38,396 bases of DNA from Bacteroidota bacterium (GTDB lineage Bacteria; Bacteroidota; Bacteroidia; Bacteroidales; UBA12481). The notes beneath the pieces were generated by a model. It was not told where the DNA came from. It searched no databases and worked only from the letters and a program-made list of their open reading frames with translations. Numbering within the stretch: position 1 is the stretch's first letter; every line of letters starts with the position of its first letter. Location of the stretch: contig JABHCC010000001.1 of assembly GCA_018669475.1 (NCBI GenBank), positions 1-38,396 on the forward strand, given 5' to 3'. A program made the position numbers and the translations under genes. This document shows, piece by piece, positions 10,594 to 38,068 of this stretch.

Positions 10594-11362
10594 TATTCGA
10601 CTCCCTGAATAAATCTTGTAGTTCTTTTGGGCTTGGATAACTCGGCAACACTGCATTTAATTTGCCCTGGAAAATAAACATGTTACCAGCAGCAACTGCG
10701 GATACTTTACCAATATTTATGGCATCTTTAAAGTCATTTAGACAACCGGCGCCTCCGGAGGCAACAACCGGGATGCCTACTTCCCTGGATACCTCATACA
10801 GTAATTCCAGATCATACCCTTTCGCAGTTCCTTCGTTGTTAATTGAGCAGAGAACAATCTCTCCTGCACCTAAATCCTCTAACTGCTTTGCGTACTCAAC
10901 TGGTTTTCTATTGGTTTTTTTTAAACCATTATTCGAATATACAGTGTGAGATCCGATCATATTTCTTTTAACATCAACAGAAATTACAATACTTTGTGAC
11001 CCAGCAATGTTACTAGCGTCAGTTATAAATTGAGGATTATTAAAGACGGCTGAATTGATAATCACCTTTTCAACTCCAATATTAAACAATTTCTCCACTT
11101 GCTTGCAGTTCTCCACACCTCCACCATATGCAAAAGGCATGAAAGCCTCACTAGCAATATCCTTCAAAAGTTCATAATTAGGTCCACACTCTTGGGATGT
11201 CGCAGAAATATCCAAGAATAGTAATTCGTCTACCAGCTTTTTATTGAAAATCTGAACTGCATTAATGGGATCGCCAACATAGCGATGATTTTTAAATTGT
11301 TGTCCTTTTACAAGTCCTCTACCTTTGAGAAGCAAGCTTGGAATTACTCGTGTTTTGAGCAT
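10586..11362 (-). CDS. HisF-like imidazole-glycerol-phosphate synthase cyclase homologue (ammonia channel for amidination)
   Basis: A 258-residue TIM-barrel protein of the HisF family. Visible family features are MLKTRVIPSLLLKGRGLVKG at the start, DISATSQ (the second-strand aspartate region), PFAYGGGV and VIINSAV. C-terminal phosphate-binding motifs are VVASGGAG and AVAAGNMF. No other his genes are present. The gene sits between a HisH homologue (19-nt overlap) and a WbpG-like amidotransferase (8-nt overlap), so it is the polysaccharide-dedicated paralogue, comparable to HisF2 of P. aeruginosa, and not the histidine-pathway enzyme. Its expected role is to receive ammonia from HisH and pass it to the amidotransferase. 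Confidence 0.9.
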   Translation of the reverse strand: MLKTRVIPSLLLKGRGLVKGQQFKNHRYVGDPINAVQIFNKKLVDELLFLDISATSQECGPNYELLKDIASEAFMPFAYGGGVENCKQVEKLFNIGVEKVIINSAVFNNPQFITDASNIAGSQSIVISVDVKRNMIGSHTVYSNNGLKKTNRKPVEYAKQLEDLGAGEIVLCSINNEGTAKGYDLELLYEVSREVGIPVVASGGAGCLNDFKDAINIGKVSAVAAGNMFIFQGKLNAVLPSYPSPKELQDLFRESNNG

Positions 11363-11991
11363 CGCACAATTTCCATGAAGTTCCTAAATATCTGCATCCC
11401 AAAACTATGACTTTTCTCAGGATGAAATTGAACACCTATAATATTTTCCCTCTGGACAATACTTGGAAAACTATAGCCATGTGCAGTAGTAGCCAATATA
11501 TCACTTCCTTCCACACATGATACATGGTATGAATGGACAAAATAGAATCGTGAATTGTCGTCTAAACCACATAAGAGAGCGTTATCCCTTTCATGGTTAA
11601 TGGTATTCCAGCCCATATGGGGAATCTTAATAGAGGGGTTGCTGAATTCTCCATTCGAAAAACGAACCACCTCCCCCTTTAGCCAACCAAGACCTCTTTC
11701 CGTGCCCTCCTCACTTTTTTCGAATAGTAGCTGCATTCCTAGGCATACTCCAAGGAAGGGCAATTTCTGCTGAAGAACTCTTTTGCGTAATATCTCTATT
11801 ACACCTGAGGTGGATAGTTTAGAAATGCCGTTATCAAATGCTCCAACGCCAGGTAAAATAACGGCGTCTGCTAAATAAATATCTTCAGGATCCTTTGATA
11901 TCATTGCATTGCCACCAACATAAGAAATCATGTTTAACATCGAGCCAGTATTCCCCATACCATAGTCCAATATAACTATTAATTCTTCCAC
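11344..11991 (-). CDS. HisH-like class I glutamine amidotransferase
   Basis: A 215-residue triad glutaminase. The nucleophile is C83 in GVCLGMQ, and the His-Glu pair is H190 and E192 in GVQFHPEKSH; the N-terminal DYGMGNTGSM and GVGAFDNGI loops are HisH-specific. The start codon is GTG at 11991-11989, which overlaps the upstream polymerase stop (TAGTG), indicating translational coupling. The 3' end overlaps the hisF-like gene by 19 nt. It supplies ammonia from glutamine to the HisF/WbpG-like partners for acetamidino-sugar formation. The isolated setting within the glycan operon rules against a histidine-biosynthesis role. Confidence 0.92.
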   Translation of the reverse strand: MEELIVILDYGMGNTGSMLNMISYVGGNAMISKDPEDIYLADAVILPGVGAFDNGISKLSTSGVIEILRKRVLQQKLPFLGVCLGMQLLFEKSEEGTERGLGWLKGEVVRFSNGEFSNPSIKIPHMGWNTINHERDNALLCGLDDNSRFYFVHSYHVSCVEGSDILATTAHGYSFPSIVQRENIIGVQFHPEKSHSFGMQIFRNFMEIVRCSKHE

Positions 11992-13343
11992 TATTTTATT
12001 TTTGCCTCATTTCCACCTATACTATAATAAAATTTACCTCTACCTTGAAAAAGCATTATACTTATCGCAATTAACAAGACAACAAAAAAGTAATAGTCCC
12101 ACATATATGCTCCCACACCCTTGATTGATATCCCCATAAAATACAAAGTCATCCAAGCACTCAATCCAACTTTTGTTGAGCTAAATGGGATTTTGTTAAG
12201 TGCAATTTGAAGCCACGCAATAAAAGCACCAATAAATAATGCTAGAAAGAAACTAAAATATCCGAAGTTAGCATACAATTCAGCCCACAATACAGGAGGA
12301 GCGGTGTATAACTGATTTGATGCATAAGTCGGGCGCATCATTTTTATCCATATTTCTTGAGCTAGTAAGTACTGTTTATACGGGAATACTCCCCTTGGAT
12401 TTGGGAAGGACGCCCCCAAAAGGAATTCACCATCATCAAACATTTCAATTGTAATATATCCTGGCACAAGGTTACCCAGCATCGTTCTATTTATCATGTA
12501 GATGAAAGTTTCATAAATCGATAACTTTGAGCCCATAAACAACGGCATAATTATCGATGTTATTATAAGTACAATTATTAAACCAACGATGATGTTTTTT
12601 ATGTATACTCGATTACCGCCTACAATCAGATTCGTAATTAGAAGTCCCAAAGCATAAAATACAAGTGGTCCTTTTGCAGTCTCTATTACGGATCCAACGA
12701 TGGAGAGTGCTACTGCAAATAGCAACAACAGTTTAATTGAATTTTTATGGTATTGCAAATATTCAGCAAACAATATGTAAGAGACTAGTGGCAGGATCAT
12801 ACGGGCGAATAACGAGTACATACCCATGCTATATGTTGATTGGAAGTTAGAAGTCAGCAAAGTGACTCTGGCATTGACCGCTTCTCCTGCTTGACCTCCG
12901 ATAGCCATCAGAATAGGGACAACACCGATGGACCGAACATAATCGACAATAACAATCGCACTAATAAGGACTAGAAGAAAAAGAAAAAGAATACTAAACT
13001 TATTTAGTGGTCGGGTAGTGAATTTTCGGGAATTTCCTGTGTGCCTTTTGAGCTTACTTCGAGATGCAAGCACAGCTCCACATGTTAGCATCATCAATGT
13101 ACCGCTAGATAAAATAAACATTTTGACAATAATCTTATTGTCAGTAGCCCCCCTAAGTATTGAATGGAAGTCCAATCCGTAATACAATATTAGAATACCT
13201 GCATATGCACCCAGCACATAATAAATAAAGAAGAAACTGGGAACTGATATAGTTGATACTTTTATGCCTACTGATCTTAAACTTATGAATGCAACATATG
13301 GGACCATTATGTAGCCCAGGAAAAACATTATGTTATAAAACAT
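11991..13343 (-). CDS. Wzy-type repeat-unit polymerase, polytopic membrane protein
   Basis: A 450-residue integral membrane protein with about 10-12 hydrophobic segments and little sequence conservation, as usual for O-antigen/capsule polymerases. A large outside loop (about 290-345), rich in Tyr, Pro and Arg, lies between late membrane segments, the typical place of the catalytic periplasmic loop of Wzy. Topology and position between the flippase/glycosyltransferase genes and the amidination genes support the call; no sequence-specific motif does. It would join undecaprenyl-linked repeat units in the periplasm. Its stop overlaps the GTG start of the HisH gene, and its start lies 3 nt after the upstream gene. 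A less likely alternative is an O-antigen ligase. Confidence 0.75.
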   Translation of the reverse strand: MFYNIMFFLGYIMVPYVAFISLRSVGIKVSTISVPSFFFIYYVLGAYAGILILYYGLDFHSILRGATDNKIIVKMFILSSGTLMMLTCGAVLASRSKLKRHTGNSRKFTTRPLNKFSILFLFLLVLISAIVIVDYVRSIGVVPILMAIGGQAGEAVNARVTLLTSNFQSTYSMGMYSLFARMILPLVSYILFAEYLQYHKNSIKLLLLFAVALSIVGSVIETAKGPLVFYALGLLITNLIVGGNRVYIKNIIVGLIIVLIITSIIMPLFMGSKLSIYETFIYMINRTMLGNLVPGYITIEMFDDGEFLLGASFPNPRGVFPYKQYLLAQEIWIKMMRPTYASNQLYTAPPVLWAELYANFGYFSFFLALFIGAFIAWLQIALNKIPFSSTKVGLSAWMTLYFMGISIKGVGAYMWDYYFFVVLLIAISIMLFQGRGKFYYSIGGNEAKIK

Positions 13344-13346
13344 GTA

Positions 13347-14873
13347 TTAAGGCACCTGATTCAGTGGGTCGTTTTTTCGCGATAGTATTTTTACGATTAA
13401 CTTTGTAAAATCATTACTAGCATGATTCATCACATTTGCTGAAGAGCTATCCCAATAATCTTCAGAGAGAATTTCTATGACTTTTTCGTCCGTATCGGCG
13501 AATACTGCTAATCCTTCCGTAATTTCATTCTTATAAAGTTCGGCTCCATTTTCATGAATCAAGATAGATTTCACCCCAATATCACGGGCTTCAATGACAA
13601 CCGTTGACCATGCGGTAATATGCTTATCCATTTGCTGAAGAATGTTATATAGTGGGAGTTCATTTGCCTCTGATAAAATGATATTATTTAGATTTCGTTG
13701 AAGCAATAAATTGTTGACCCTAGCAAAAGCATCCTGCTTCGAGGGATGAAGTCGAATCCACCAAATGCAGTTATCGCGCGTCTTTTCAATTGAATTAAGG
13801 AGCATTTCTGGGATATCATCATCCTGCATTGTATATAGAACATGAGTGAAACCAAAGAATTTTTCCTTCACACTATTGATAGTCATTTTTATTCTGTTTG
13901 AACTGGGGCTCAGATCATTTATAAGTTCCTCCAGCCACATATTCCCTATCGCCATCGGATAGTGAAATGACAATACTTTGCTATTCCATTGTTGAATAAC
14001 TTTTTTTTCAGCATTACTCCAACAAATAAAGATCTCTGGAAGTAACGAATAGCCAGCCTCCGGAATTTTATTCCATCTACCATACGCCCAATGCAAATCA
14101 TGCTCGACACCATGCTGAATATCTGCTGATGTAATATTCAATCTTCTGCAAGCCAGATTAAGAGCCATCCCACTTCGTCCGTAGTATTGTGTACTAATTG
14201 CAGTTACAATTTCATTTTTTTTCAATATTCTAAAAAAGTATCGCGACAAATCATTTATTATATTAAACTCAACACGAATTTTATTTATGTTTATTGATAT
14301 TGGTACAGAATATTTATTTTTAATGTACGATTCAATTTTGACTAGGGTACTCTCTGTTGATACAGAATACTTATTTGGTCCGTTGATGATATTCCGATAT
14401 AGTACTATTGAGTTTATTACTCGTTGTATAAAAATAGACTTATTGTTACGTGGGATACGATATTTTCCGATGCTATTTGTTTCTACAATAATACCCTTAA
14501 TACACTGGTTATTCAATTTTGTATATAATGGGTCGATGATTCGATTGTAATATCTGTCCTCGTGCTTAACAAGATCAATTGTATTTGTTAAATATAAAAC
14601 ATCAGATTTGATAAACCGTGAATTATTTCTATAATCTCTAATCGTTGCATAAAACTGACGAAGTGTAGATAAAACAATTACTGCTATTTTTCTAAACAAT
14701 GGCATGAACCTACTAGTCGATCCAATTCTCTTGCTAACAAAGAATGGATTGAGCTGAGTAACAATATCATACCTAATGATTGGCCAAATATGTGTATCAT
14801 CGATGACTAATTCATCAACATTGAAATGCTCTTCAACATCGTTAATAATATCCATATATTTAGACATTTTCAT
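13347..14873 (-). CDS. Putative GT-B-like polysaccharide transferase, unassigned family
   Basis: Not confidently recognised. The product is about 508 residues with no signal peptide. An N-terminal module (about 1-30) has DELVIDDTHIWPIIRYDI, an acidic-aromatic motif I associate with unnamed proteins of polysaccharide loci. A basic linker follows. The C-terminal half resembles GT-B donor domains of capsule enzymes such as CDP-glycerol or KpsC/KpsS-type transferases: DIQHGVEHDLHW, then FICWSNAEKKV, WIRLHPSK, and a late HITAWSTVVIEA. It lies between wzx and wzy, 3 nt before the latter, so it probably adds a unit of the repeat. The start is uncertain: ATG 14873 has no close ribosome site, whereas TTG 14879 has AGGA about 10 nt upstream. 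Confidence 0.6.
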   Translation of the reverse strand: MKMSKYMDIINDVEEHFNVDELVIDDTHIWPIIRYDIVTQLNPFFVSKRIGSTSRFMPLFRKIAVIVLSTLRQFYATIRDYRNNSRFIKSDVLYLTNTIDLVKHEDRYYNRIIDPLYTKLNNQCIKGIIVETNSIGKYRIPRNNKSIFIQRVINSIVLYRNIINGPNKYSVSTESTLVKIESYIKNKYSVPISININKIRVEFNIINDLSRYFFRILKKNEIVTAISTQYYGRSGMALNLACRRLNITSADIQHGVEHDLHWAYGRWNKIPEAGYSLLPEIFICWSNAEKKVIQQWNSKVLSFHYPMAIGNMWLEELINDLSPSSNRIKMTINSVKEKFFGFTHVLYTMQDDDIPEMLLNSIEKTRDNCIWWIRLHPSKQDAFARVNNLLLQRNLNNIILSEANELPLYNILQQMDKHITAWSTVVIEARDIGVKSILIHENGAELYKNEITEGLAVFADTDEKVIEILSEDYWDSSSANVMNHASNDFTKLIVKILSRKNDPLNQVP

Positions 14874-14915
14874 AAACAATACTTTTAATTCCTGATTAAT
14901 ATATAAGTAGACTCG

Positions 14916-17054: not shown

Positions 17055-18017
17055 TCAATTTGATCTTAGGCGGATTCTCTGCATAATAATATATCCTCTA
17101 TTGGCAATATATTTTAACCTCTCTTGCCAAGAACCTTTCCTATTAATATGTTTTAGCCAGACTGGATTAGTTACTTTAACCCACTTATTAAATTCTTTCC
17201 AATTCAACGCACCTAACTTATTTAGGTTATATAAGGAGATATTGGCTTCGCGAATTAAATATTTCTTCGGTTTTAAATATTTAATTAGTCCGCGTACTTG
17301 TGTATTCCATATCATTATTTCAGTTCCCCTATCATATTCTCTTTCCGCTGAAATGGATTTATACATTGGAACTTCTGCCCCGACCTTATTCATAATCTGA
17401 TGATAGTGAAACGTATCTTCAACAATGTGATATTTTCCGCCCTCCTCTTTTAGTAATTCTGCAAATATTATATCTTCTTGTCGGTATGAATAATCATCAC
17501 TAATTTTCTTAGAAACATTTTTCAATATATCTGTGCGCCCAAATTGGCTGCCAGAAAGAGCTCTGATTTGATGTTTTGGTTCAACACCCCAAGTTTCAAC
17601 CAAATGTGTCAATTTTCTTTTACATTCAAACCAATCATACGTATTCTTATATTTTTCCATATTATCAAACCACATTTCTGGCAAATATACATCAGAATGA
17701 AGGTACACAAAAAATGTCGTTTCAACTAATTCAATTAGTTTACGTATCCGATATCCCAAACTAGTGTCAATAAGTGAGACTATCTCCACTCTAGGGAATA
17801 GTCTCGCAATTGTAAGAGTATCATCTGTGCAACCACCATCTCCAATCAGAAGCTTTTTAATTGGAATCTCTCTATAGAAAGATAATAGATTGCTCTCCCA
17901 TAATTCATTGGTATTCAAAACCGGGATAATAACATCTATCGCATTAGCGTTATTCACCAAATACCTATCTTCGAGACTACAAGATTCGTAGTATTGTTGA
18001 AATATTGATTTATTCAT
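17055..18017 (-). CDS. Family 2 glycosyltransferase
   Basis: A soluble or peripheral GT-A glycosyltransferase of 320 residues. The N-terminal half shows AIDVIIPVLNTNELWESNL, LLIGDGGCTDDT (the nucleotide-sugar aspartates) and a probable metal-binding motif, HSDV, in FFVYLHSDVYLPEMWF at about 128-143. The acceptor side carries a QED motif in YRQEDIIFAELL. No membrane helices are visible. It is the last gene after the CDP-tyvelose cassette, 3 nt downstream of the RfbE-like gene, so it is a natural candidate for the transferase that uses the CDP-dideoxyhexose. That is positional inference only. Its downstream side borders the decayed IS3 remnant. Confidence 0.85.
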   Translation of the reverse strand: MNKSIFQQYYESCSLEDRYLVNNANAIDVIIPVLNTNELWESNLLSFYREIPIKKLLIGDGGCTDDTLTIARLFPRVEIVSLIDTSLGYRIRKLIELVETTFFVYLHSDVYLPEMWFDNMEKYKNTYDWFECKRKLTHLVETWGVEPKHQIRALSGSQFGRTDILKNVSKKISDDYSYRQEDIIFAELLKEEGGKYHIVEDTFHYHQIMNKVGAEVPMYKSISAEREYDRGTEIMIWNTQVRGLIKYLKPKKYLIREANISLYNLNKLGALNWKEFNKWVKVTNPVWLKHINRKGSWQERLKYIANRGYIIMQRIRLRSN

Positions 18018-25737: not shown

Positions 25738-26493
25738 CTACTTTTTCAGATACATTTTGTTCTGTGAATCCCAATTTTTCTGGAATTTCTGTTTACAGTC
25801 GATATTGATTTTGGGGATGTCTGGGTTGTCATCTAAAAATTGGATGATATCATCCATGGGGGTTTTATAGGTGTCACCGCCAAAATGATCAAATATCTGT
25901 TCAAAGAATCTGAAATCTTCAGCATAATCCAGCGTTAGCCTAAAATCAGGTCTTTGGTGGGAACCAGGGATATCCAGATCAGTTACCTTAAATTGATCAT
26001 TATCCGTAAAATACCTTCCCCACACCTCTGTATTTTGATCATCTTTTATCTCCATAACCTGTCGCAATGCATCTACCTTAATGCCATAGGAGTACATCCC
26101 ATGGGGGAGATCTAAGCAACGAATCAAATCCGCTTTTGTCTCGTGGAAGGTTGAGACAATGGTGTCGAAATATTCAACTGAAACGAGAGGACAATCAGCA
26201 GTAATATTGAGGATATAATCCAGACCAAAATATTTCCCTGCCTCGTATAATCGTTCTACTACATCATCTTCGTGTCCACAGAAGGAAGAAATACCCTCTT
26301 CCCTAGCAATCTCGACCAATGGTTGGTCCTGAATATTATCCGAGGTGCAAATGACGATCTGGTCTAGGATTTCACTCTGCTTAATTCGATCGGTCATCCA
26401 TCTAATCATCTCTCTATCTCGCAGTTTTAAGAGAAGTTTCTTCTCCAATCTAGTAGATTTTAAGCGGGCAGTAATAAGGAATCCGATTTTCAT
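25738..26493 (-). CDS. SpsF-like cytidylyltransferase, probable CMP-nonulosonate synthetase
   Basis: A 251-residue nucleotidyltransferase of the cytidylyltransferase superfamily. The N-terminal FLITARLKSTRLEKKLLLKL is the SpsF-type CTP loop (relatives: QARMGSTRLPGK), not the NeuA form PARGGSKGIPRKN. ITADCPLVSVEYFD holds the metal-binding aspartate, and an LTLDYAEDFRFFEQIF segment follows. It is the only candidate in the window for CMP activation of a nonulosonic acid, so it should serve the LegI and/or the divergent NeuB product. ATG 26493 follows the NeuB-like stop by one base. SpsE (NeuB-like) and SpsF are adjacent in Bacillus spore-coat loci, and the same pairing is seen here. Confidence 0.85.
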   Translation of the reverse strand: MKIGFLITARLKSTRLEKKLLLKLRDREMIRWMTDRIKQSEILDQIVICTSDNIQDQPLVEIAREEGISSFCGHEDDVVERLYEAGKYFGLDYILNITADCPLVSVEYFDTIVSTFHETKADLIRCLDLPHGMYSYGIKVDALRQVMEIKDDQNTEVWGRYFTDNDQFKVTDLDIPGSHQRPDFRLTLDYAEDFRFFEQIFDHFGGDTYKTPMDDIIQFLDDNPDIPKINIDCKQKFQKNWDSQNKMYLKK

Positions 26494-26494
26494 T

Positions 26495-27505
26495 TCATGC
26501 TCCCAGATGCTCTTTTTTAAGGACAGTGTCCTTTTTTAGATCGACCAAGAATGAGCGTCCAATCATATCTATGGTTTCGATTTGAGATAAATTTGAAACC
26601 TCTTCAGTTCTCTTAAAAGCGATAATCTCTTTCAACAGCACCTCACCTGCTTTCACGTCACAGTTCAGCAAAGCAGCTTTTTTCATGGGGCCATATACTG
26701 AATAACTCCTTTCACCAGAATTTAGCTTGAGTGCCCCATCCCCTCCAATCGAGTTGAGGATGCTTAAAGAATTGGACAATTCATTAAACATGTCGATTGA
26801 AATCGCTGACTCCCAATCACACCTTTTTTTGCCATATATATTAGTGACATGCTTTTCAATATATCCAACACCTGAAGCCGCTGCGAGGGAAGTGATAAGC
26901 ATATTATTATCATCATTCCAAGCAGTATGATCGGCATAACCATATTCATATTCTGGGTATAGCTTTTTAACTTTTTTAATCTTATGCAAATTAATATTGT
27001 GATATTTTGTTGGGTAGTTTTGAAACCCAAACATCAATATAATATTATCATGTCTAAGTGTCTCCATGGCCCGCTCAATTTCGTACAAATCTGAACCACC
27101 GACGCCAAGGACAACTTTTTGATCTTTGTGAAGACTTCCGCTGAGATGTTCAAGCAATTTAACATCATTCAAACACACCGAATGAATTTCAACCAGTTTG
27201 GGATTGAATCTCATCCCAAAATCTATGGCTTTCCTATCATTGAGTAGCAACATGATATCCTTTGAACCGCTCCGAGTCCTTCCGATAAGTTCGGTCCACT
27301 GGTCTGCGTCCAGCATCCATTTTTTTAATGTGTCATGTACAGGATGTCGATGATCCATATATTCATCAAGATCCAAGGTTAAATGATATTTAATAAAATC
27401 AGCTTTAGTTTTATTGATCAGGTCAGAAACCAGAGTCTCCATGAATGTATAATCCCCTTCATGATGCCATGCAGTTTCCGCGATGGTTACTATTGATTTA
27501 TTCAT
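26495..27505 (-). CDS. Divergent NeuB-family (SpsE-like) sialic-acid-type synthase
   Basis: A 336-residue homologue of N-acetylneuraminate synthase: NeuB TIM barrel (1-265) plus a SAF/antifreeze-like C-terminal domain (about 275-336). It is clearly different from the LegI in the same operon. The usual KFQ strand reads FIKYHLTLDLDEY, and GYSDHT is GYADHT. EKHFTLD becomes EKHVTNIYGKKRCDWESAIS, so the segment after EKH is remodelled. The PEP-condensing barrel seems otherwise intact (KVVLGVGGSDLYEIE, FGFQNYPT). It overlaps the YhcH-like gene by 4 nt and precedes the SpsF-like gene by 1 nt, so these three are tightly coupled. Substrate unknown; it may make a second 2-keto-3-deoxy acid or be a non-catalytic partner. 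Confidence 0.85.
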   Translation of the reverse strand: MNKSIVTIAETAWHHEGDYTFMETLVSDLINKTKADFIKYHLTLDLDEYMDHRHPVHDTLKKWMLDADQWTELIGRTRSGSKDIMLLLNDRKAIDFGMRFNPKLVEIHSVCLNDVKLLEHLSGSLHKDQKVVLGVGGSDLYEIERAMETLRHDNIILMFGFQNYPTKYHNINLHKIKKVKKLYPEYEYGYADHTAWNDDNNMLITSLAAASGVGYIEKHVTNIYGKKRCDWESAISIDMFNELSNSLSILNSIGGDGALKLNSGERSYSVYGPMKKAALLNCDVKAGEVLLKEIIAFKRTEEVSNLSQIETIDMIGRSFLVDLKKDTVLKKEHLGA

Positions 27506-27948
27506 AGCTTAACTTTCACGACAACTTTTTTTAGATATTCTGGGATTCCATTAACGGAAATAGTAGTTTCATGCGGTTCGTCAGGGAAAATTGCGATAAA
27601 ATGATTTGACTTCATTCTAATCTCGTGGGTCACGAATAAATCCTTAAACAATTCGCAATCTGTATCCTCGTTATAGGAGGTAAAAATCTTCGCTTTGTCT
27701 ATTTTTCCAATTGAAATATTTTCTGATCCAGACACAACAAAATGGATGTCAATACACTTCTGGTGATTTTCAAAAAGATGACTTCTTAATGCTACTGTTT
27801 CTGATTCAATAACAATCAGGTCAACCTTTTCATTGATGACATTCACCCCCTGCTTTAAATCATTTGTCTCCATGTACTTGAAAAAGCTGTCCACATTGGG
27901 AATCAAGGCCGAATATTTGTTTATGTTTGATATTTTATCAATGATCAC
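27502..27948 (-). CDS. YhcH/YjgK/YiaL-family protein (NanQ-like sugar anomerase candidate)
   Basis: A 148-residue cupin-like protein. It has the family's metal-binding pattern: ENHQKCIDIHFVVSG (relatives: EAHRKYIDIQ), the SYNEDTDCELF region, FIAIFPDEPHET with the conserved histidine, and the C-terminal VVVKVKL found almost unchanged across the family. E. coli YhcH/NanQ is reported as an N-acetylneuraminate anomerase, so its coupling here to a NeuB homologue suggests it handles ring forms of a nonulosonate or its precursor. That is inference. The start codon is GTG at 27948 with AGAAAG about 10 nt upstream; the stop overlaps the next start (ATGA). Some family members are in sugar catabolism, an alternative reading. 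Confidence 0.85.
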   Translation of the reverse strand: MIIDKISNINKYSALIPNVDSFFKYMETNDLKQGVNVINEKVDLIVIESETVALRSHLFENHQKCIDIHFVVSGSENISIGKIDKAKIFTSYNEDTDCELFKDLFVTHEIRMKSNHFIAIFPDEPHETTISVNGIPEYLKKVVVKVKL

Positions 27949-28014: not shown

Positions 28015-29055
28015 CTAAGATAAATGCTTTGCGATCTCCTGAGCTCTTTGATAATCATCATGCTTCCCAATATCTATCCAGTATCCCACGATAGGGTTTT
28101 GAATGATCACCATTCCCATTTTTAATAGGCCCTCAATAAGATCAGTGATATCATAAAATGAATTTTGAGGTATGTATTGAATTAATTCCTTGCGGAGAAT
28201 ATAAACCCCGGCATTAGCATAATGGGTGAAGACAGGTTTCTCTCGAATAGATCGGATTTTTTGATCTTCTTCATCAAATATCCCATAGGGAATCTTCACC
28301 GTGTGTAAGACTGAGGCTATTCCCATATCAGCTTCATTTTGGTTAATGCTTAAAAATAAGTCCTCAATATCAACATCAGTAAATAGATCACTATTCATGA
28401 GAACAATATATTTTGTTTCAATATTCTTGATGAGGGTCAGTGCACCTGCTGTACCGAGAGGTTTATCTTCCCAGATATACTCAATTGAGATTCCCTTGGC
28501 AGATCCATCTCCAAAATAATCCATAATCTGCTGGCCCAAGTATAGGATCGTGATGTAAATTTTTTCAATTCCATAACTTATCAGTTGATCAATATTGTGT
28601 TCAAGGATCGGCTTTCCACCAATCTCCAACATGGGCTTAGGAGTATCATCAGTAAGGGGTCTCAACCTTTCACCTCGACCACCAGCCATAATTACGCACT
28701 CAAGCGGTAGATTGCTTTTCCTAGTCTTAAGATCATATACCTTTTGAATGTGCCCAGAATCATCTAATTCTGGCAACAAACGAATTCCCACATTTCGAAT
28801 GGTTTTAAATTCGGAGACACTCTCGCTATTATCAATAGTCCTATACTCGGTGGTCATGAATTCAGAAGTCTTGCCCGATAAATCCAGACCACGAAGAAAA
28901 CCACGCCTAATATCACCATCAGTGAGGGTCCCGATCAATTTATTGTCATCATTCAGAACAAATAAGGTGAGAGTGCTAGGGATAGTCTCCAGCTGTTGCA
29001 TAGCTTCAATGACGCTTGATCTATGTGAAATCAGGTTAGGTGTAAAGTTAATCAT
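28015..29055 (-). CDS. PtmE-like CBS-domain sugar-1-phosphate nucleotidyltransferase
   Basis: A 346-residue fusion. Residues 1-115 hold two CBS repeats (VLNDDNKLIGTLTDGDIRRG is typical). Residues 119-346 are a nucleotidyltransferase with MAGGRGERLRPLTDDTPKPM (123-142), LMNSDLF (metal-binding Asp), EDKPLGTAGAL and GYWIDIGKHDDY. The architecture is that of PtmE, reported in Campylobacter jejuni to make GDP-GlcNAc for the legionaminic pathway. CBS domains bind adenosyl nucleotides and may regulate flux. It follows LegI after 16 nt, the same order as in Campylobacter. The 66-nt gap downstream (27949-28014) contains no gene. Nucleotide specificity is taken from the family, not seen. Confidence 0.88.
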   Translation of the reverse strand: MINFTPNLISHRSSVIEAMQQLETIPSTLTLFVLNDDNKLIGTLTDGDIRRGFLRGLDLSGKTSEFMTTEYRTIDNSESVSEFKTIRNVGIRLLPELDDSGHIQKVYDLKTRKSNLPLECVIMAGGRGERLRPLTDDTPKPMLEIGGKPILEHNIDQLISYGIEKIYITILYLGQQIMDYFGDGSAKGISIEYIWEDKPLGTAGALTLIKNIETKYIVLMNSDLFTDVDIEDLFLSINQNEADMGIASVLHTVKIPYGIFDEEDQKIRSIREKPVFTHYANAGVYILRKELIQYIPQNSFYDITDLIEGLLKMGMVIIQNPIVGYWIDIGKHDDYQRAQEIAKHLS

Positions 29056-29071
29056 TTCAGTTCACTATTAA

Positions 29072-30076
29072 TTACCATTCGATCTGGTCGTCTTTTTTAT
29101 ATTCCCGGGTCGCTGCTTTTTTCATCACATCTTCGATTTGCATGGGAGATATGCCGTTCCCAGGTCGTTTTGTCGTGATGTTATCCTTTGAAAATATCTC
29201 TCCCATACGGATAGCCCGAGAGGCAACTAAACTCTTTCTGACCACAGCAATGTTCTTTTTCTCAGAAAGAGAGGGTTGTTTTTGTCCTCCTCCCAAGGCC
29301 AGCTCAATATTCCTGATCGAGTGGACCATAGCTTTCAATTCATAGGGTTCCAGTGAGGCTTGATGATCTGGTCCTGGCAAGGTTCTATCGAGTGTAAAAT
29401 GTTTCTCAATAATTGTGGCCCCCAAAGCAACAGCAGCAATTGGGACCTCGATCCCACTGGTATGGTCAGAATAGCCTATGGGCAATCCAAGGGTCTCCTG
29501 CATGGTTATGATAGCTCTCAAATTCACATCCTCAAAGGGTGTTGGATATTCTGTATTACAGTGTAATACAGAGATCTTGTCTCGCTCAGTCCCATGAGAG
29601 ACCAACACATCCAGAGCAGCACGTATCTCAATCATATCTGCCATACCAGTTGACATAATAATGGGCTTATTATACACGGCCATGGCCTCCAAATAGGGAT
29701 AGTTAGTGATTTCACCAGAGGGGATTTTGAAAAGTTTAACACCCAGTTCATTGAGCAACTCGATGCTAGCGATATCAAATGGGGCAGAGAGAAATTCAAT
29801 TTCCACCTCTTCGCAATAATGCATCAACTCCAAATGGTTTTCTCTTGTAAGTTCTAGCTTTCTAATCATCTCAAACTGGGTTTCACCAGCATCTGTGGTA
29901 GATTTTTGATAGCTGGCCTTTTCAGCAGATTCCGTAACTAATTCATTGGCTCTAAAAGTCTGAAATTTGACGATATCAGCACCGGCAGATTTTGCTCCAT
30001 CAATGAGTTTGAATGCCAAGTCCATACTGCCATTATGGTTCACTCCTGCCTCTGCTATGATCAAGATTCTAGGCAT
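29072..30076 (-). CDS. legI: Legionaminic acid synthase (LegI, NeuB family)
   Basis: A 334-residue canonical NeuB-type synthase that condenses PEP with a 2,4-diamido-2,4,6-trideoxymannose to give a legionaminic-type acid. Family features are AEAGVNHNGSMDLAFKLID, ADIVKFQTFRA, SAPFD, FKIPSGEITNYPYLE, STGMAD, LHCNTEYPTPFEDVNL, GYSDHTSGIEV, EKHFTLDRTLPGPDHQASLEP and a C-terminal SAF domain (VVRKSLVASRAI onward). The motif DRTLPGPDHQASLEP fits Leg/Pse synthases better than sialic acid synthases, and the flanking LegG and PtmE favour Leg. It overlaps LegG by 8 nt. It is the classical synthase, in contrast to the divergent NeuB homologue at 26495. Confidence 0.92.
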   Translation of the reverse strand: MPRILIIAEAGVNHNGSMDLAFKLIDGAKSAGADIVKFQTFRANELVTESAEKASYQKSTTDAGETQFEMIRKLELTRENHLELMHYCEEVEIEFLSAPFDIASIELLNELGVKLFKIPSGEITNYPYLEAMAVYNKPIIMSTGMADMIEIRAALDVLVSHGTERDKISVLHCNTEYPTPFEDVNLRAIITMQETLGLPIGYSDHTSGIEVPIAAVALGATIIEKHFTLDRTLPGPDHQASLEPYELKAMVHSIRNIELALGGGQKQPSLSEKKNIAVVRKSLVASRAIRMGEIFSKDNITTKRPGNGISPMQIEDVMKKAATREYKKDDQIEW

Positions 30077-31226
30077 AAGAAAACTCTAACTGTTTGCGCA
30101 TGAGCTTCTGATCAACTTGGGTCGATCTTAGCACATGGATAATACGTTCTGCGGCGTGACCATCTCCGAATTTGTAATCCATTTTTTCCAGAGAAGATTT
30201 AAATTCATGATCCAGAGCAATCTTGATTGCCTTGCTGATAGACTCTCTCAAATAGGTGCAATCTAGGACACTTTCATGTCGAATGCGACCAGTTTGACGA
30301 TCGCCAATATTCACCGTTGGAATTTTGAAGAATGGCACTTCCAATATTCCGCTAGAAGAATTTCCAATAACAAACTCAACACATCTCAACATGGATTGAT
30401 AACGTTTGATCCCCAGAGACTGGATAAAGATGTAATCTGATTTTCTGGCCACTTCAGAATGTATCAATTCAAATAATTTTTCATGCCCAGTATCAATATT
30501 GGGAGCTGTGATCATTACCTGAAAATCAAATGATTCAAGTGCCATAAAAAGATTTCGAATCTGCTCCTCATGCGAGAATCCAAATTCTAGGGTAACAGGA
30601 TGATAGGTGAGCAACACTGTCGGTTTACTTATATCTAGCCTGAACTGATCAAATAATTCTTCTCTTGAAAAATCTGCTTCCTCACTGATGGAATCCACAC
30701 CCAGCGCTCCTACGTTATGCACTCGCCAAGCCTCTTCACCCATTTTAATAATATTCTCCTTATACGCTTCTGCTGCGCAAAAATGGAGATGGGAAGCCTT
30801 GGTAATCATATGTCTGATTTGATCATCAATTGCTCCCGATGTTACTTCTCCACCATGGATATGAATAATAGGTTTTCTAAATATTATAGCAGTCTGTACA
30901 ATGGGTAGCAATTCTATTCTATCGCCTAATACACAAGCATAGTCAAAGATATACCCCTCGAATAGTTCACTCAGTTGAAACGACTCAACAGCCATTGATT
31001 GTGTGAGGGTCTTCTCTGTATCAGTATTAAGCAAGAAATCGAAGGTGATAATATTACTTCCTCTTGGTTCAATTTCATCAATTGATCTACCCTGACTGTC
31101 CAGGTGATGACTCCCTCCAACAAAAAGCAAGTATTCAAAATATTGATCATTTTCAATAGTATCTAATAGAGTTGAAAGTAAACCATATTCCGCCCTACTT
31201 GTTGTAAATATTCCTATCGTTTTCAT
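30069..31226 (-). CDS. legG: Hydrolysing NDP-sugar 2-epimerase (LegG, NeuC family)
   Basis: A 385-residue GT-B-fold epimerase that removes the nucleotide and inverts C2, giving the manno-configured diamino sugar used by LegI. Family motifs are GIFTTSRAEYGLLSTLL, VLGDRIELLPIVQTA, IIHIHGGEVTSGAIDDQIRH, LHFCAAEAYKENI, LLTYHPVT, the FVIGNSSSGILEVPFFKIP loop and NIGDRQTGRIR. Its ATG overlaps the formyltransferase stop by 4 nt (ATGA), and its stop overlaps legI by 8 nt, so the order formyltransferase-epimerase-synthase is translationally coupled. LegG normally acts on the GDP/UDP-linked N-acylated 4-amino sugar, so here its substrate may carry an N-formyl group. Confidence 0.92.
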   Translation of the reverse strand: MKTIGIFTTSRAEYGLLSTLLDTIENDQYFEYLLFVGGSHHLDSQGRSIDEIEPRGSNIITFDFLLNTDTEKTLTQSMAVESFQLSELFEGYIFDYACVLGDRIELLPIVQTAIIFRKPIIHIHGGEVTSGAIDDQIRHMITKASHLHFCAAEAYKENIIKMGEEAWRVHNVGALGVDSISEEADFSREELFDQFRLDISKPTVLLTYHPVTLEFGFSHEEQIRNLFMALESFDFQVMITAPNIDTGHEKLFELIHSEVARKSDYIFIQSLGIKRYQSMLRCVEFVIGNSSSGILEVPFFKIPTVNIGDRQTGRIRHESVLDCTYLRESISKAIKIALDHEFKSSLEKMDYKFGDGHAAERIIHVLRSTQVDQKLMRKQLEFSYA

Positions 31227-32116
31227 TCAAATCTATCCCCGATGCGAACAGTGCCATTATAATCATAATGCACTAATTCTATGAATGTATCCTGTGTTTT
31301 AACCAAGATAGAGTTGCCTCGCTTACCGATAATTGCTCCGGGTATCAGCTTGTAGGTAGGTGCATCATTGATTATAGTTGCTTTGGAAATTTGCATCTCA
31401 GTACCCTTAAGAAAGGTTCTTGCATTTGGACCTGGATGACATATTGCTCTAATAAAATTAAAGATTTCCCGACTGCCTTGATTCCAGTCTATTATCTCAT
31501 CTCCAGCCTGTCTCCTATTGCAATAAAAACCAGTCGGATGAATGGTTGACTGAACAATGGGCGATGTTTTTTGACAATATATTAGTATAAGGGATTCATA
31601 CAAAACGTTTGCGCATTCCTCATAGGCAATCGCCAATAACGTGGAATAATCGTCACTGTCGGAAATTGGAATCTTTCGTTGAAGTATAATATCACCAGTA
31701 TCTATTCCTTCATCCACATAATGAACTGTAATGCCAAACTCACTCTCATCATTAATCAACACCCAATTAAGAATATTCCTACCTCTATAAAAGGGGAGCA
31801 TACCAGCATGACAATTGATAGTTTTAAGTGGGGGATACTCTATAAAGTTCTTTCTAAATATTTGGTTAAAACTCATTGAAACAAAAATATCACACTTGTA
31901 TTTATCGATTGACTGCAGAAAATCGTTGGAGCTTACTTTTGGATGTCTAAGCAAATTTATATTGGATTCTTTTGCATATTGTTTTAACACCATATCCCCT
32001 GAGTCAAACCTCACGCAAATAAACATAATTGCAAAACGATCATCATGAATAATCTTATTGAATGTGCTATGTGCCCATGGACCATCAGCAAAATAACCAA
32101 TTTTTAACCTTTTCAT
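31223..32116 (-). CDS. Sugar N-formyltransferase
   Basis: A 297-residue N10-formyltetrahydrofolate-dependent formyltransferase. The catalytic triad is visible as N101 and H103 (INCHAGMLPFYRGRN) and D139 (YVDEGIDTGDI). A C-terminal domain (about 200-297) is of the methionyl-tRNA formyltransferase type. It lies between LegC and LegG with ATGA overlaps on both sides. That is the pathway step at which LegH would acetylate the C4 amino group; no acetyltransferase is found in the window. The simplest inference is that the 4-amino group set by LegC is formylated, giving a nonulosonate with N-formyl at C7. Alternatives: action on another aminosugar of the repeat unit, or a housekeeping paralogue (unlikely, given no tRNA-related genes). 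Confidence 0.9.
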   Translation of the reverse strand: MKRLKIGYFADGPWAHSTFNKIIHDDRFAIMFICVRFDSGDMVLKQYAKESNINLLRHPKVSSNDFLQSIDKYKCDIFVSMSFNQIFRKNFIEYPPLKTINCHAGMLPFYRGRNILNWVLINDESEFGITVHYVDEGIDTGDIILQRKIPISDSDDYSTLLAIAYEECANVLYESLILIYCQKTSPIVQSTIHPTGFYCNRRQAGDEIIDWNQGSREIFNFIRAICHPGPNARTFLKGTEMQISKATIINDAPTYKLIPGAIIGKRGNSILVKTQDTFIELVHYDYNGTVRIGDRFE

Positions 32117-33276
32117 GAATTAAGTCTCCTTACTCCGCTAGGAACATTTACAATTCTGTCTTCTAGAAATAAGGAATTTTCCAAACCATCATGCTGGCAA
32201 TGCATATAGATATCCAATTTATGCATTAATTTCCATAGAGGCCGAGTCATGACACCATTGTCATTTGTGGCGATTAGGAATGCATCCCTCTCGCTCCGAT
32301 TCTTCATTATGATAGCATTGAGCCAATTATTGGCTTGCCCTTCGGCAAGACCCTGGAAAAACTCTATCGAATGGGATTTGCAGAATGTGCTGTATGCCTC
32401 GCTTGTTTGGCGTTTGCTGACGAGATATTCTTCAAGTTTTTCCATTTGAGCTACCCCAATGCTGGCACTAACATTATTCAGACGATAATTATAGCCGATT
32501 TCATCATGAGAGAATTCCCATCTGTGGGAAATTTTGGCTGTTGTAGAAAGATGTCTGGCTTTCGCAGCCAGTTCTTCATTATTAGTAATGATCATTCCAC
32601 CACCACCTGTAGTGATGGTCTTGTTACCGTTATAGCTGAAAACGCCCACAAGACCAAAAGTACCGGTGTGCTGCTGTCTGTAAGTTGAACCCAGGGATTC
32701 AGCAGAATCCTCGATAACTGGAATATTGTATTGATTTGCCACAGCGACGATCTCATCAATCCGGCAAGGATTTCCAAAGGTATGCATGGGTACGATGCCC
32801 GAGATGGTGCGATTAGTGGTTATATTCACTGCACTTTTGGTTTCAGCATCCATGAAAACATTTGATTTTAGCCATTTTGACAATGCTACAGGTGACATCC
32901 CCAATGTATCCATATCCACATCAACAAAAACAGGCTCTGCACCTGCGTGGGCAATGGCATTGGCAGTTGCTACAAAAGTCAGTGATTGGGTAATGACCTC
33001 ATCTCCTCGCTCGACGCCAGCGACCTGCAGCGCAATATGTAGGGCAGCTGTACCATTCACAAAGGCCACTGCGTGCTTTGCGCCGGTATACTGAGTAGTT
33101 ATCTCTTCAAATTGAGTCACGTATTTACCTACAGATGACACAAAAGTGGTGTCAATGCAATTCTGCATATATTTCTTTTCATTTCCGGTAAAAATGGGCG
33201 CATGAAGTGGAACAGGATATAAACCTGGATATAGAGATTTGATAAATTCGATGAGGTCTTGAAAAGGTTTGGTCAT
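32113..33276 (-). CDS. legC: LegC-type PLP aminotransferase (4-keto-6-deoxy-HexNAc to 4-amino)
   Basis: A DegT-family aminotransferase of 387 residues. The PLP-lysine is K219 in FSYNGNKTITTGGGG. The N-terminal YPVPLHAPIFTGNEKKYM, IDTTFVSSVG and QFEEITTQYTGAKHAVAFVNGTAALH blocks match the LegC subgroup, and IEDSAESLGS carries the cofactor aspartate. It should aminate C4 of the LegB product. The frame is open to 33321 with ATG codons at 33291 and 33276. I chose 33276 because GAGAAG lies about 8 nt before it and homology starts with MTKPFQ; the start is then 1 nt beyond the LegB stop. It overlaps the formyltransferase start by 4 nt. Confidence 0.92.
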   Translation of the reverse strand: MTKPFQDLIEFIKSLYPGLYPVPLHAPIFTGNEKKYMQNCIDTTFVSSVGKYVTQFEEITTQYTGAKHAVAFVNGTAALHIALQVAGVERGDEVITQSLTFVATANAIAHAGAEPVFVDVDMDTLGMSPVALSKWLKSNVFMDAETKSAVNITTNRTISGIVPMHTFGNPCRIDEIVAVANQYNIPVIEDSAESLGSTYRQQHTGTFGLVGVFSYNGNKTITTGGGGMIITNNEELAAKARHLSTTAKISHRWEFSHDEIGYNYRLNNVSASIGVAQMEKLEEYLVSKRQTSEAYSTFCKSHSIEFFQGLAEGQANNWLNAIIMKNRSERDAFLIATNDNGVMTRPLWKLMHKLDIYMHCQHDGLENSLFLEDRIVNVPSGVRRLNS

Positions 33277-33277
33277 G

Positions 33278-34462
33278 TTACATCTTCTCATCCAGAAATT
33301 TGCCTTTTTCCTGATGATCAAGATCGGGTAAGAGCTGTTTAAATATTTCGAGAATATCAGTGCGAGTCCAAGCTCCAGATCTGCTTAATCCAGCAATACT
33401 CGCTAGAAAATGGTTTAGCTTTTCGTCTGAGGCATTCGCACTATTCTTCACTATCCCCAAAGTATTGTATTGAGTCAGGTCGACCTCTTCATGGTCCATA
33501 TAGAATTCTTCATAGGCTTTTTCGCCTGTCGTATCACTCGAGCTAAAATAGCAGGGCCACTTTTTCTCGTCCTTTAGCTCGTAGATCTTGCCACGAGCTT
33601 CTTCCTCACTTTTGCATAGGTAAGGTGCGAATCCATTCTGGATCAGGAACTTCTCTGCAATCTCAGCGAAAGTGATCATATTGAGATCACCATTTAGCTT
33701 GGGGAAGTAAATCTCGCCATTTTCCCCTCGTAGTGTTGATAGAAGACACAATTCACCTGATTCCTGAGGTGTAACAAAATAACGTCTTACATCGTTGGGT
33801 GCTGCAATGGGCTGATCCTTCATAAAGCGCTGCCGGAATCCATGTAGCAGACTACCATCGGAAAAAGCCACGTTGGCAAATCGGGCAGTGGATATGGGGA
33901 TCTGGTTACCATACTTCTGCAGAAATATTTCCATGATACGTTTGGAAGCACCCATCATGTTCACTGGATGGGCTGCCTTGTCAGTGGACACGCAGAAATA
34001 TTTCTTTACACCACTATCAATCGATAGTTCAATGGTTTTGATGGTATTCAGAATATTAACTTCCACCATACGCATGAGGGAATATGGGTCCTTCTCACTT
34101 CGCACATGCTTGAGGGCCGACAGATTGAGTACATAATCAAAAGGACCTTCATTTTTAAAATAGAACTCGAATTCCAAGGAGCCGGCATCCAATACAAAGG
34201 ATTTGAATTCACCATCTATATAGCCATAAGAGCTACGGATATCACGCACGAGCTCAACTAAATTATTCTCAGAAAGATCTACGACATGAAGCTTCAGGGG
34301 ACTCCTCTTGAAAATTTCCATTACGACTGCTTGACCGATTGATCCTGCACCTCCAATCACTAAGAACTTTGAGCTTGAGATTGTGCGACACAATTCAACA
34401 TCATATTGATGAAGGTCTGAGATAAGATTAGTGTTACGCCCGATAAGTGAGAGAATATCCAT
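33278..34462 (-). CDS. legB: LegB-type NDP-N-acetylglucosamine 4,6-dehydratase
   Basis: A 394-residue SDR of the polysaccharide-biosynthesis dehydratase family (CapD/FlaA1/WbpM core). GGAGSIGQAV is the NAD motif at about 37-46. VLNLSALKHVRSEKDPYSLMRM and the catalytic STDKAAHPVNMMGASKR follow; the usual Tyr of YxxxK is Met, as in the SMK-type triad of WbpM. A C-terminal extension of about 100 residues (EEFYMDHEEVDL onward) is characteristic of LegB against the shorter PseB. Expected product: the 4-keto-6-deoxy HexNAc used by LegC. It is the first gene of the nonulosonate module. The 136-nt gap to wzc (34463-34598) has no gene and could hold a promoter or attenuator; no motif is decisive. Confidence 0.92.
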   Translation of the reverse strand: MDILSLIGRNTNLISDLHQYDVELCRTISSSKFLVIGGAGSIGQAVVMEIFKRSPLKLHVVDLSENNLVELVRDIRSSYGYIDGEFKSFVLDAGSLEFEFYFKNEGPFDYVLNLSALKHVRSEKDPYSLMRMVEVNILNTIKTIELSIDSGVKKYFCVSTDKAAHPVNMMGASKRIMEIFLQKYGNQIPISTARFANVAFSDGSLLHGFRQRFMKDQPIAAPNDVRRYFVTPQESGELCLLSTLRGENGEIYFPKLNGDLNMITFAEIAEKFLIQNGFAPYLCKSEEEARGKIYELKDEKKWPCYFSSSDTTGEKAYEEFYMDHEEVDLTQYNTLGIVKNSANASDEKLNHFLASIAGLSRSGAWTRTDILEIFKQLLPDLDHQEKGKFLDEKM

Positions 34463-37095: not shown

Positions 37096-37248
37096 TTATT
37101 TTTTGATGAAATTATCTGGTTCGAACAGGCATTGTTTGGTCCAATATCTTGAATCTTTAAGATGCAAGCCACCCTCAAGATCTGGAAATTGATTGCAATG
37201 TAAAAAATATTTGAATGAAGAAGTAGGACATAAACAAGTGTTATTCAC
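37096..37248 (-). CDS. Possible 50-residue ORF in the wzc leader region
   Basis: A GTG-initiated frame of 50 codons runs from 37248, overlapping the end of the upstream lipoprotein-like gene by 8 nt, to TAA at 37098-37096. The translation includes FPDLEGGLHLKDSRYW and CLFEPDNFIKK and has three cysteines. I recognise no family, and chance is a real possibility. A second short ATG frame (36977-37063, 28 residues, WKLKDLRDINPFLYRLLV) ends 11 nt before wzc. The stretch 36966-37240 otherwise shows no clear promoter, ops/JUMPstart element or terminator. Confidence 0.2.
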   Translation of the reverse strand: MNNTCLCPTSSFKYFLHCNQFPDLEGGLHLKDSRYWTKQCLFEPDNFIKK

Positions 37249-38068
37249 CTACAAAGAGAAAAGTTGCCCAAGGGGATTCGGATCCAGCTGTTTCAAAGTC
37301 ATCAATGTATTGTGCTCCAGTATCAATGCGCCACTTGTAGACCTCGTCTGGCTCCAATGAAACAGACACTGGAATTGTCCACGATTCAACAGCACTGGTG
37401 TAGTTTCCAGGATTGAACACCTCTCTCCAAACTAATTCGTTGCCATCAGTAGTAATTGTCAGACAATACGTTTCCATTTCAATATCATATCCATAGTTCC
37501 ATCGCAGTTGCCTTGCTCCATCGAGCTTGTCGATTGGTCCGTTTGGTACCATCGTGCTTAATTGAACTGTTGGTAAAAGAGAATAGCTCCTTGAATCAGA
37601 ATAGTCGCTAAGATTACCTGTCATATCTTCTGTCTTAAGCTTATAATTGAAATAAGTTCGCAATTGAATATCTGTGTCAATATATTCTAGTAAAGCTGAT
37701 GATTCACTTTCCAAGCGAGTTAACAGCTCATAATCACTAAGACTATCATTTTGATCAAAATATTCAGCTCGAAATATCAAGTATGCTGATATGTTCTCTC
37801 CAGAATTAGGTGCCCACTCTAAATAAATACCAAATTCATGAGCATCAATCCCTCGCTCAGGCCACTCATCAGGTAAGGATTTTTGAACCCAGACCGGAGG
37901 AGTGGGTTGAGTTGGATCTTCCACATCTATACCACAAGAATGAAAATTGAAAATTGAAAATTGAATTAGGACGATATAAATGGTGGGTGACCAATAACGA
38001 TAGAATATTTTTAATATTGGTAGAATTGAATAAGTGGACAGGGTGAAATCTTCATTCGATTTAAACAT
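37241..38068 (-). CDS. Putative exported or lipid-anchored fibronectin-III-like protein
   Basis: Function unknown; 275 residues. A hydrophobic stretch (about 29-44) ends at a cysteine in FNFHSCG, a weak lipobox. A Pro/Thr-rich linker (DPTQPTPPVW) follows. Two beta-rich modules come next (about 65-165 and 168-272): WAPNSGENISAYLIFRAE and YFNYKLKTEDMTGN look like a fibronectin type III strand pattern, and EPDEVYKWRIDTGAQY is like the end of a second one. It would be secreted or attached to a membrane, possibly binding glycan. It lies between ahcY and wzc in the same direction, 275 nt before wzc, so a link to the polysaccharide system is possible. The start at 38068 leaves an unusually long N-terminal region before the hydrophobic core. 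Confidence 0.6.
   Translation of the reverse strand: MFKSNEDFTLSTYSILPILKIFYRYWSPTIYIVLIQFSIFNFHSCGIDVEDPTQPTPPVWVQKSLPDEWPERGIDAHEFGIYLEWAPNSGENISAYLIFRAEYFDQNDSLSDYELLTRLESESSALLEYIDTDIQLRTYFNYKLKTEDMTGNLSDYSDSRSYSLLPTVQLSTMVPNGPIDKLDGARQLRWNYGYDIEMETYCLTITTDGNELVWREVFNPGNYTSAVESWTIPVSVSLEPDEVYKWRIDTGAQYIDDFETAGSESPWATFLFVGE
37941..37961. repeat. Three tandem heptamers in the signal region of the lipoprotein-like gene
   Basis: The heptamer TGAAAAT is repeated three times without interruption, followed by a partial fourth copy. It lies in the hydrophobic N-terminal coding segment of the gene at 37241-38068. Because 7 is not a multiple of 3, gain or loss of a unit would shift the frame. Confidence 0.9.

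Follow-up and report, generated by a model that had tools for sequence, protein, structure and literature searches.

Legionaminic acid (Leg) is made by a pathway that has been characterized in Campylobacter jejuni and Legionella pneumophila, where the acetyltransferase LegH acts on the C4 amine between the aminotransferase LegC and the epimerase LegG. We analyzed a stretch of 38,396 nucleotides (hereafter the window; contig JABHCC010000001.1 of assembly GCA_018669475.1, a Bacteroidota bacterium) that carries a minus-strand cluster of this kind, with a 297-residue sugar N-formyltransferase (31223–32116) at the LegH place. Judging from the sequence, it is likely that this enzyme takes the LegH step and that the cluster directs the synthesis of 7-N-formyl legionaminic acid. 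The available parts of two papers (PMC6137143, PMC6388019) support the LegH-type pathway in part, and it is among the closest described systems. The window resembles it in the families to which its LegC, LegG, and LegI belong, in the order of steps, and in a ptmE-like gene, but differs in carrying a formyltransferase for LegH and a PF02719-type dehydratase for one of the TIGR04180 type; no LegF of the usual type was seen in the window.

Formylated nonulosonates have been described before. According to the available portion of PMC6137143, 5-N-formyl-legionaminic acid is reported from Halorubrum sp. PV6 and virus HRPV-1, and in Halorubrum sp. PV6 a putative formyltransferase gene, HrrPV6_1050, lies beside legG and is transcribed, with a neuD gene adjacent, while a LegH is also proposed (HrrPV6_1014, annotated as a nucleotidyltransferase). 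The likeness to the window consists of a legionaminic acid with one formyl group and a putative formyltransferase next to legG; the differences are that the formyl group is reported at C5 rather than C7, that LegH is proposed as well, and that HrrPV6_1050 is likened to the window enzyme by description, not by sequence. N-formyl legionaminic acid is known already in this 5-N-formyl form, and the new part would be a widespread formyltransferase acting at the LegH step. A preliminary description of the window, made from its letters, was aware of no Leg pathway built in this way, which stands for the LegH step but takes no account of Halorubrum; neither 7-N-formyl legionaminic acid nor a Leg pathway whose LegH step falls to a formyltransferase was recognized among the papers listed in searches of open-licence literature, one of which listed 30 of 546, a weak negative. 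The accessible parts of other reports place a 7-formamido pseudaminic acid on record (PMC3210612, PMC7281560), list N-formyl as one of the N-acyl groups that pseudaminic and legionaminic acids, considered jointly, carry (PMC6388019), describe formyl and acetyl transferases that replace each other on perosamine (PMC5981137), and propose that a formyltransferase stands in for the acetyltransferase FdtC in the case of a different sugar of Geobacillus (PMC5109656).

The run in the window consists of a dehydratase, LegC, the formyltransferase, LegG, LegI, and the ptmE-like gene, all on the minus strand and joined throughout by short overlaps or gaps. At the legB place lies a 4,6-dehydratase of PF02719 type (33278–34462, 140.2 bits), for which no match to TIGR04180, the NCBIfam LegB model, is listed. 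It shares 64% identity with its counterpart at the equivalent place in the related clusters L044 and L047, and the gene at that place in the related cluster L043 passes TIGR04180 (530 bits); both dehydratase types are found at the legB place among related clusters. The LegC-type aminotransferase (32113–33321; TIGR04181 515.6 bits, cut-off 420) may start at a TTG, overlapping legB by 44 bp, or at the ATG of position 33276, a single base beyond the stop codon of legB. The formyltransferase overlaps legC by 4 bp and is itself overlapped by 4 bp by LegG, a hydrolyzing 2-epimerase (30069–31226; TIGR03568 389 bits, cut-off 235.9), after which LegI, a nonulosonate synthase with a SAF domain (29072–30076; TIGR03569 502.3 bits, cut-off 399.65; PF03102, PF08666), overlaps legG by 8 bp. 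A gene for a CBS plus nucleotidyltransferase protein, which we take to be ptmE-like, follows 16 bp after legI (28015–29055; PF00483 129.9 bits; CBS 23.2 bits, just below the cut-off of 24). The TIGR03568 and TIGR03569 models do not distinguish Leg from Neu; the best PDB match of the window LegG is the GDP/UDP-N,N'-diacetylbacillosamine 2-epimerase 5zlr (251 bits), and the pseudaminic counterparts remain below their NCBIfam cut-offs in the window (PseC 214.6 of 423.5, PseI 296 of 340.25). No acetyltransferase, LegH included, was recognized among the 35 larger open reading frames (ORFs) of the window, 28 of them scanned with Pfam and seven with NCBIfam; six ORFs match no Pfam family (35–808, 1029–2462, 11991–13343, 13347–14879, 17055–18017, and 37241–38068). 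The gene order, the tight coupling, and the lack of a recognizable acetyltransferase given in the preliminary description are therefore borne out. Its span of 31223–34462 covers legB, legC, and the formyltransferase but leaves legG and legI just outside, and its legB label fits the place of the dehydratase better than its type.

The formyltransferase exceeds the Pfam cut-offs in both of its domains (PF00551 89.6 bits, cut-off 26.1; PF02911 50.2 bits, cut-off 21.1), and its formyl donor would, from the family, be N10-formyl-tetrahydrofolate. The Asn-His-Asp triad, already seen as intact in the first inspection and presumably catalytic, is formed by N101, H103, and D139 and is invariant in 88/88 aligned rows, among which L045 and L128 are one gene. 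A structure predicted from an alignment of 40 sequences, to which 39 of the 80 loci described below contributed (L074, with a frame-broken match, was dropped), is confident throughout, with a pLDDT of 95.6 and a pTM of 0.90. The model matches Met-tRNA formyltransferases (Z 31–33) and ArnA (Z 30–32) best, in both cases over most of its length. ArnA, whose substrate is UDP-Ara4N, also provides the best PDB sequence match through its formyltransferase domain (8gjh, E = 4e-23) and shares the two-domain fold, but has a fused second domain where the window enzyme stands alone. WbkC, a GDP-perosamine N-formyltransferase (PDB 5vys and others) with the acetyl counterparts PerB and WbdR, is comparable in having the same fold and a 4-amino-6-deoxy sugar on GDP; it differs in acting on another sugar, in being a shorter protein, and in matching the model at a Z of about 25 across about 240 residues with 24% identity, and the fold predicted to be shared with it would not specify the substrate or the nucleotide of the window enzyme. 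PseJ (PDB 6ci2, 6ci4), which we take to be the formyltransferase of the pseudaminic acid route, likewise belongs to a nonulosonate pathway, but it is pseudaminic rather than legionaminic, has 192–217 residues in the PDB against 297, and matches the window enzyme with E = 2.5e-12 across 93 residues.

The assignment to the LegH step is supported by a comparison of the LegH slot across the phylum. We searched 395 phylum genomes, among them that of the window, for the formyltransferase (orthologs at ≥246 bits, next match 109) and for LegC (orthologs at ≥360 bits, next match 289), dropping from the LegC set all matches of ≤289 bits, including a 245-bit, 52% identical LegC fragment in genome G141, and for the 34 other genomes we profiled the surroundings of the gene over as much as 20 kb, L185 being a contig of 4.2 kb. 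LegC orthologs occur in 35 genomes and formyltransferase orthologs in eight, and because all eight lie within the 35, the association of the formyltransferase with leg genes is more than chance. LegH is present in 23/27 LegC clusters that lack the formyltransferase and in 1/8 that have it (Fisher p = 3.4e-4, relatedness ignored); the single cluster with both genes is that of G303, where the formyltransferase follows LegH. In 21 of the 23 LegH clusters LegH comes directly after legC, its start no more than 81 bp from the legC match, and in five of the eight formyltransferase clusters the formyltransferase starts within 17 bp. The formyltransferase-only state requires six changes on the LegC tree, at least five of them on well-supported branches, and among six independent pairs on well-supported branches that differ in the formyltransferase, LegH changes in the opposite direction in 4.9 on average and never in the same one. 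The exchange between LegH and the formyltransferase is therefore a repeated one.

The closest comparison is within one genus, between the formyltransferase cluster of G187 and the LegH cluster of G159, which share 87.5% identity in LegB, 86.6% in LegC, 83.1% in LegI, 82.0% in LegG, and 85.1% in PtmE. Since LegG and LegI are so similar across the two clusters, no special variants of them look needed for a formamido substrate, contrary to what the preliminary description had expected; its central proposal, a formyltransferase in the LegH step, gains support from clusters that place one or the other enzyme after LegC among genes that are otherwise much alike.

Beyond the phylum, a one-genome-per-species scan found 234 relatives of the formyltransferase, and the locus counts that follow cover the best 80 of these 234. 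The 80 span 12 named NCBI phyla, with four records lacking a phylum, and leg genes accompany the formyltransferase in 77 of them: legI in 70/80, legG in 61/80, and legC in 57/80, with legI starting within 300 bp downstream of the formyltransferase in 59/80. Cultured environmental relatives include Marinoscillum furvescens DSM 4134 (L126) and Labilibacter marinus Y11 (L120). The neighborhood of legC and formyltransferase noted in the window recurs inside and outside the phylum, and the many bacteria with the same formyl-for-acetyl swap probably produce the sugar in a formylated form.

In the scheme that we consider likely, we infer the substrate, the nucleotide, the formyl position, and the stereochemistry as follows. 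LegB and LegC would make an NDP-4-amino-4,6-dideoxy-GlcNAc, with GDP as the probable nucleotide because of the ptmE-like gene, which suggests a GDP-sugar route. The formyltransferase would then transfer the formyl group from the folate donor onto the C4 amine, LegG would remove the nucleotide and invert C2, and LegI would add pyruvate. The legionaminic acid predicted to result carries its N-formyl group at C7 and, barring later modification, an N-acetyl group at C5. The C7 position follows from the expectation that a gene replacing LegH, an enzyme of the C4 amine, most likely acts on C4 too.

A number of observations weigh against this scheme. The formylated legionaminic acid that has been reported is the 5-N-formyl form of Halorubrum, as far as the available part of PMC6137143 goes. 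With relatedness allowed for, the six independent pairs yield a median p of 0.0625, so that mutual exclusion is weaker than the raw counts and only suggestive. Two of the eight phylum clusters have the formyltransferase at some distance from legC, 2.3 kb in G199 and 6.3 kb in G195. The difference between G187 and G159 extends past the slot, with LegF just 40.1% identical. No LegC of over 300 bits occurs in the stretch read for 23/80 relatives, some of which are short contigs (the counts refer to stretches, not to whole genomes), and 3/80 have neither legC, legG, nor legI; at others, L138 for example, no aminotransferase was recognized near the formyltransferase. In the wider set, LegH and the formyltransferase can coexist, as LegH lies directly upstream of the formyltransferase in 15/80 loci, and the window's own genome has a LegH-type acetyltransferase on another contig, C214; both cases are taken up below.

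LegH was found in 17/80 loci in all. The tandem arrangement occurs at L074, L078, L085, L087, L088, L094, L095, L116, L117, L128 (read as L045, on the same contig), L137, L145, L146, L149, and L152, and a strict mutual exclusion of the two genes was rejected on this count. These loci may represent an intermediate state, since the genus of G303 shows all three arrangements: on the LegC tree, the sister of the G303 tandem cluster has LegH alone and shares its genus code, and another cluster of that genus is formyltransferase-only. The C-terminal GxP motif of LegH, scored by eye from the alignment, is present in 0/15 tandem loci versus 18/23 LegH-only clusters. Its loss need not mean that LegH activity is lost, because the five LegH-only clusters without it, all from one genus, have no formyltransferase nearby; in the tandem LegH it may reflect specialization or decay and is proof of neither. 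Of the two LegH matches that are not adjacent to the formyltransferase, L093 has the motif and L133 lacks it.

An alternative is that the formyltransferase acts on the other nitrogen (C2 of the hexose or C5 of the nonulosonate), as in Halorubrum, and that a LegH, here the one on C214, acetylates C4. The report of a formyltransferase gene beside legG and next to neuD in a 5-N-formyl producer (PMC6137143, in its available part), the 15 tandem loci, and the LegH-type protein in the window's genome all agree with it. We nevertheless regard it as unlikely. In 7/8 phylum clusters the formyltransferase replaces LegH rather than joining it, the LegH of the tandem loci lacks the GxP in every case, and a second, different formyltransferase, paired with a PIG-L deacetylase in 8/80 loci and at L193 and L208, is a better candidate for C5. 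In addition, a search of the seven other formyltransferase genomes for a LegH like that of C214 found none in six (best E = 2e-7), G303 having one at 53%; those six may carry a LegH of another family. It is far more improbable, to the point of being negligible, that the gene is an accidental duplicate of the Met-tRNA formyltransferase gene inside the cluster. Such an origin would agree with the shared fold and with the NCBIfam ranking, where TIGR00460 is the best of the formyltransferase models for the window enzyme; however, its score (138.9 bits) falls short of the cut-off of 201.5, as does that for the ArnA model (125.5 of 777), and the relatives keep company with leg genes almost throughout. 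All three members tested (from the window, L044, and L079) lie below every NCBIfam cut-off, with Met-tRNA formyltransferase ranking first or second among the models listed. An identity as the housekeeping Fmt or PurN was likewise rejected, given the missed TIGR00460 cut-off and the presence in the genome of separate genes for Fmt (contig C111, 276.3 of 201.5 bits with TIGR00460) and PurN (contig C27, 170 of 150.1 bits).

The LegH-type protein of C214 is the best NeuD/PglB-family protein of the window's genome (TIGR03570 196.9 bits, cut-off 160.8) and belongs to a second nonulosonate cluster with the order legH-legI-legG-ptmE-legF (L042:10286–15056), in which neither legB nor legC was found in the 20 kb read. 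The preliminary description had held that a LegH elsewhere in the genome, if needed for Leg synthesis, would speak against it; a LegH-type protein has been found there, and it may or may not be needed for Leg synthesis. Compatibly with 7-N-formylation by the window cluster, a single LegB/LegC pair might feed both the window formyltransferase and the C214 LegH, giving two acyl forms of the sugar, an arrangement that we hold to be a real, if somewhat less than even, possibility. The missing legB and legC of C214 are consistent with this arrangement, as is the rest of the genome: the window LegC is its sole LegC-type match (the next best reaching 34% identity across a part of the sequence), the window's kind of LegB occurs once, in the window, and a LegB of the other type has no close match (best 32%). 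The nearest PDB entry of the C214 LegH is a GDP-perosamine N-acetyltransferase, and for the C214 LegG the diacetylbacillosamine epimerase gives 326 bits versus 179 for human GNE. On the other hand, the C214 cluster may make Neu5Ac, which requires neither LegB nor LegC; its LegI exceeds the cut-off of a model with the name N-acetylneuraminate synthase, though the window LegI does so too, and in an assembly of 215 contigs that is 95.4% complete some genes may be missing.

If the formyltransferase indeed fills the LegH step, the slot after LegC may be a more general site of exchangeable N-acylation. Four of the 27 formyltransferase-free clusters also lack LegH (L189, L186, L185, and L205). In two of them the LegH slot holds another protein, an ATP-grasp protein at L189:10594–11556 and a different formyltransferase domain at L185:1045–2013, while L186 has a GNAT/FemAB protein farther down the cluster (L186:6689–7756), and at L205 no slot enzyme was recognized in the profiled stretch. 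The G195 cluster holds a weak GNAT-type gene (25.3 bits, cut-off 25). The pair of PIG-L deacetylase and second formyltransferase, which accompanies either slot gene, lies at L043:5884–7424 and also at L090, L091, L112, L119, L144, L151, L193, and L208; L193 and L208 are LegH clusters without the window-type formyltransferase. By its families, the pair would suit deacetylation and formylation at C5. In a broader reading, for and against which we see about equal odds, the slot would be filled by LegH, the window-type formyltransferase, the L185 formyltransferase, the L189 ATP-grasp protein, or perhaps the L186 GNAT/FemAB protein, and the PIG-L pair would set C5, yielding combinatorial legionaminic acids in many phyla, including 7-N-formyl and 5,7-di-N-formyl forms and, in the bacterium of the window, perhaps a C5 acetamidino form.

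The last of these suggestions concerns a WbuX-HisF2-HisH acetamidino module on the minus strand of the window (9451–11991; TIGR03573 294.6 bits, cut-off 203.2; NF038364 342.3, cut-off 310; TIGR01855 238.5, cut-off 105.4). It consists of a WbuX amidotransferase, a protein of the AglZ/HisF2 family, and HisH, and belongs to the polysaccharide locus that also holds the leg genes. The module may convert the C5 N-acetyl group of the predicted product, or act on another sugar, and may thereby alter the predicted mass of the product. Similar modules occur in 19/113 leg loci, where a narrower query had found three only; L045, on the same contig as L128, was left out of the amidino and PIG-L counts. The module is uninformative about the slot, because 11 of the loci that have it carry the formyltransferase and no LegH, and eight carry LegH and no formyltransferase. 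A mutual exclusion between this module and PIG-L, expected if both act at C5, was rejected, with PIG-L in 4/19 amidino loci versus 16/94 others (p = 0.74).

Should 7-N-formylation by the window-type enzyme hold true, the gene after legC would predict the 7-N-acyl group of legionaminic acid from sequence alone, and the swap of one gene would alter a sugar of the cell surface that may be recognized by phages, predators, or hosts. Members of the family are easily mislabeled as Met-tRNA formyltransferase. In Campylobacter coli, an extra 'methionyl-tRNA formyltransferase' gene has been read as a translation trait (PMC12102941, in its available part). No relative of the formyltransferase was found in a plasmid collection at E 1e-40.

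Past the ptmE-like gene, the window encodes a protein of the YhcH/YjgK/YiaL family (27502–27948; TIGR00022 87.4 bits, cut-off 45.5; N-acetylneuraminate anomerase model 80.5 of 160). Two further genes on the minus strand encode a second NeuB-family protein (26495–27505; PF03102 88.1 bits; TIGR03569 96.3 of 399.65) and a CTP_transf_3 cytidylyltransferase (25738–26493; PF02348 70.4 bits), possibly the CMP-activating enzyme for the product. The two (25738–27505) come after the ptmE-like gene, at the place that LegF takes in other clusters, and a similar NeuB-family/CTP_transf_3 pair follows ptmE in L113, L200, and L201.

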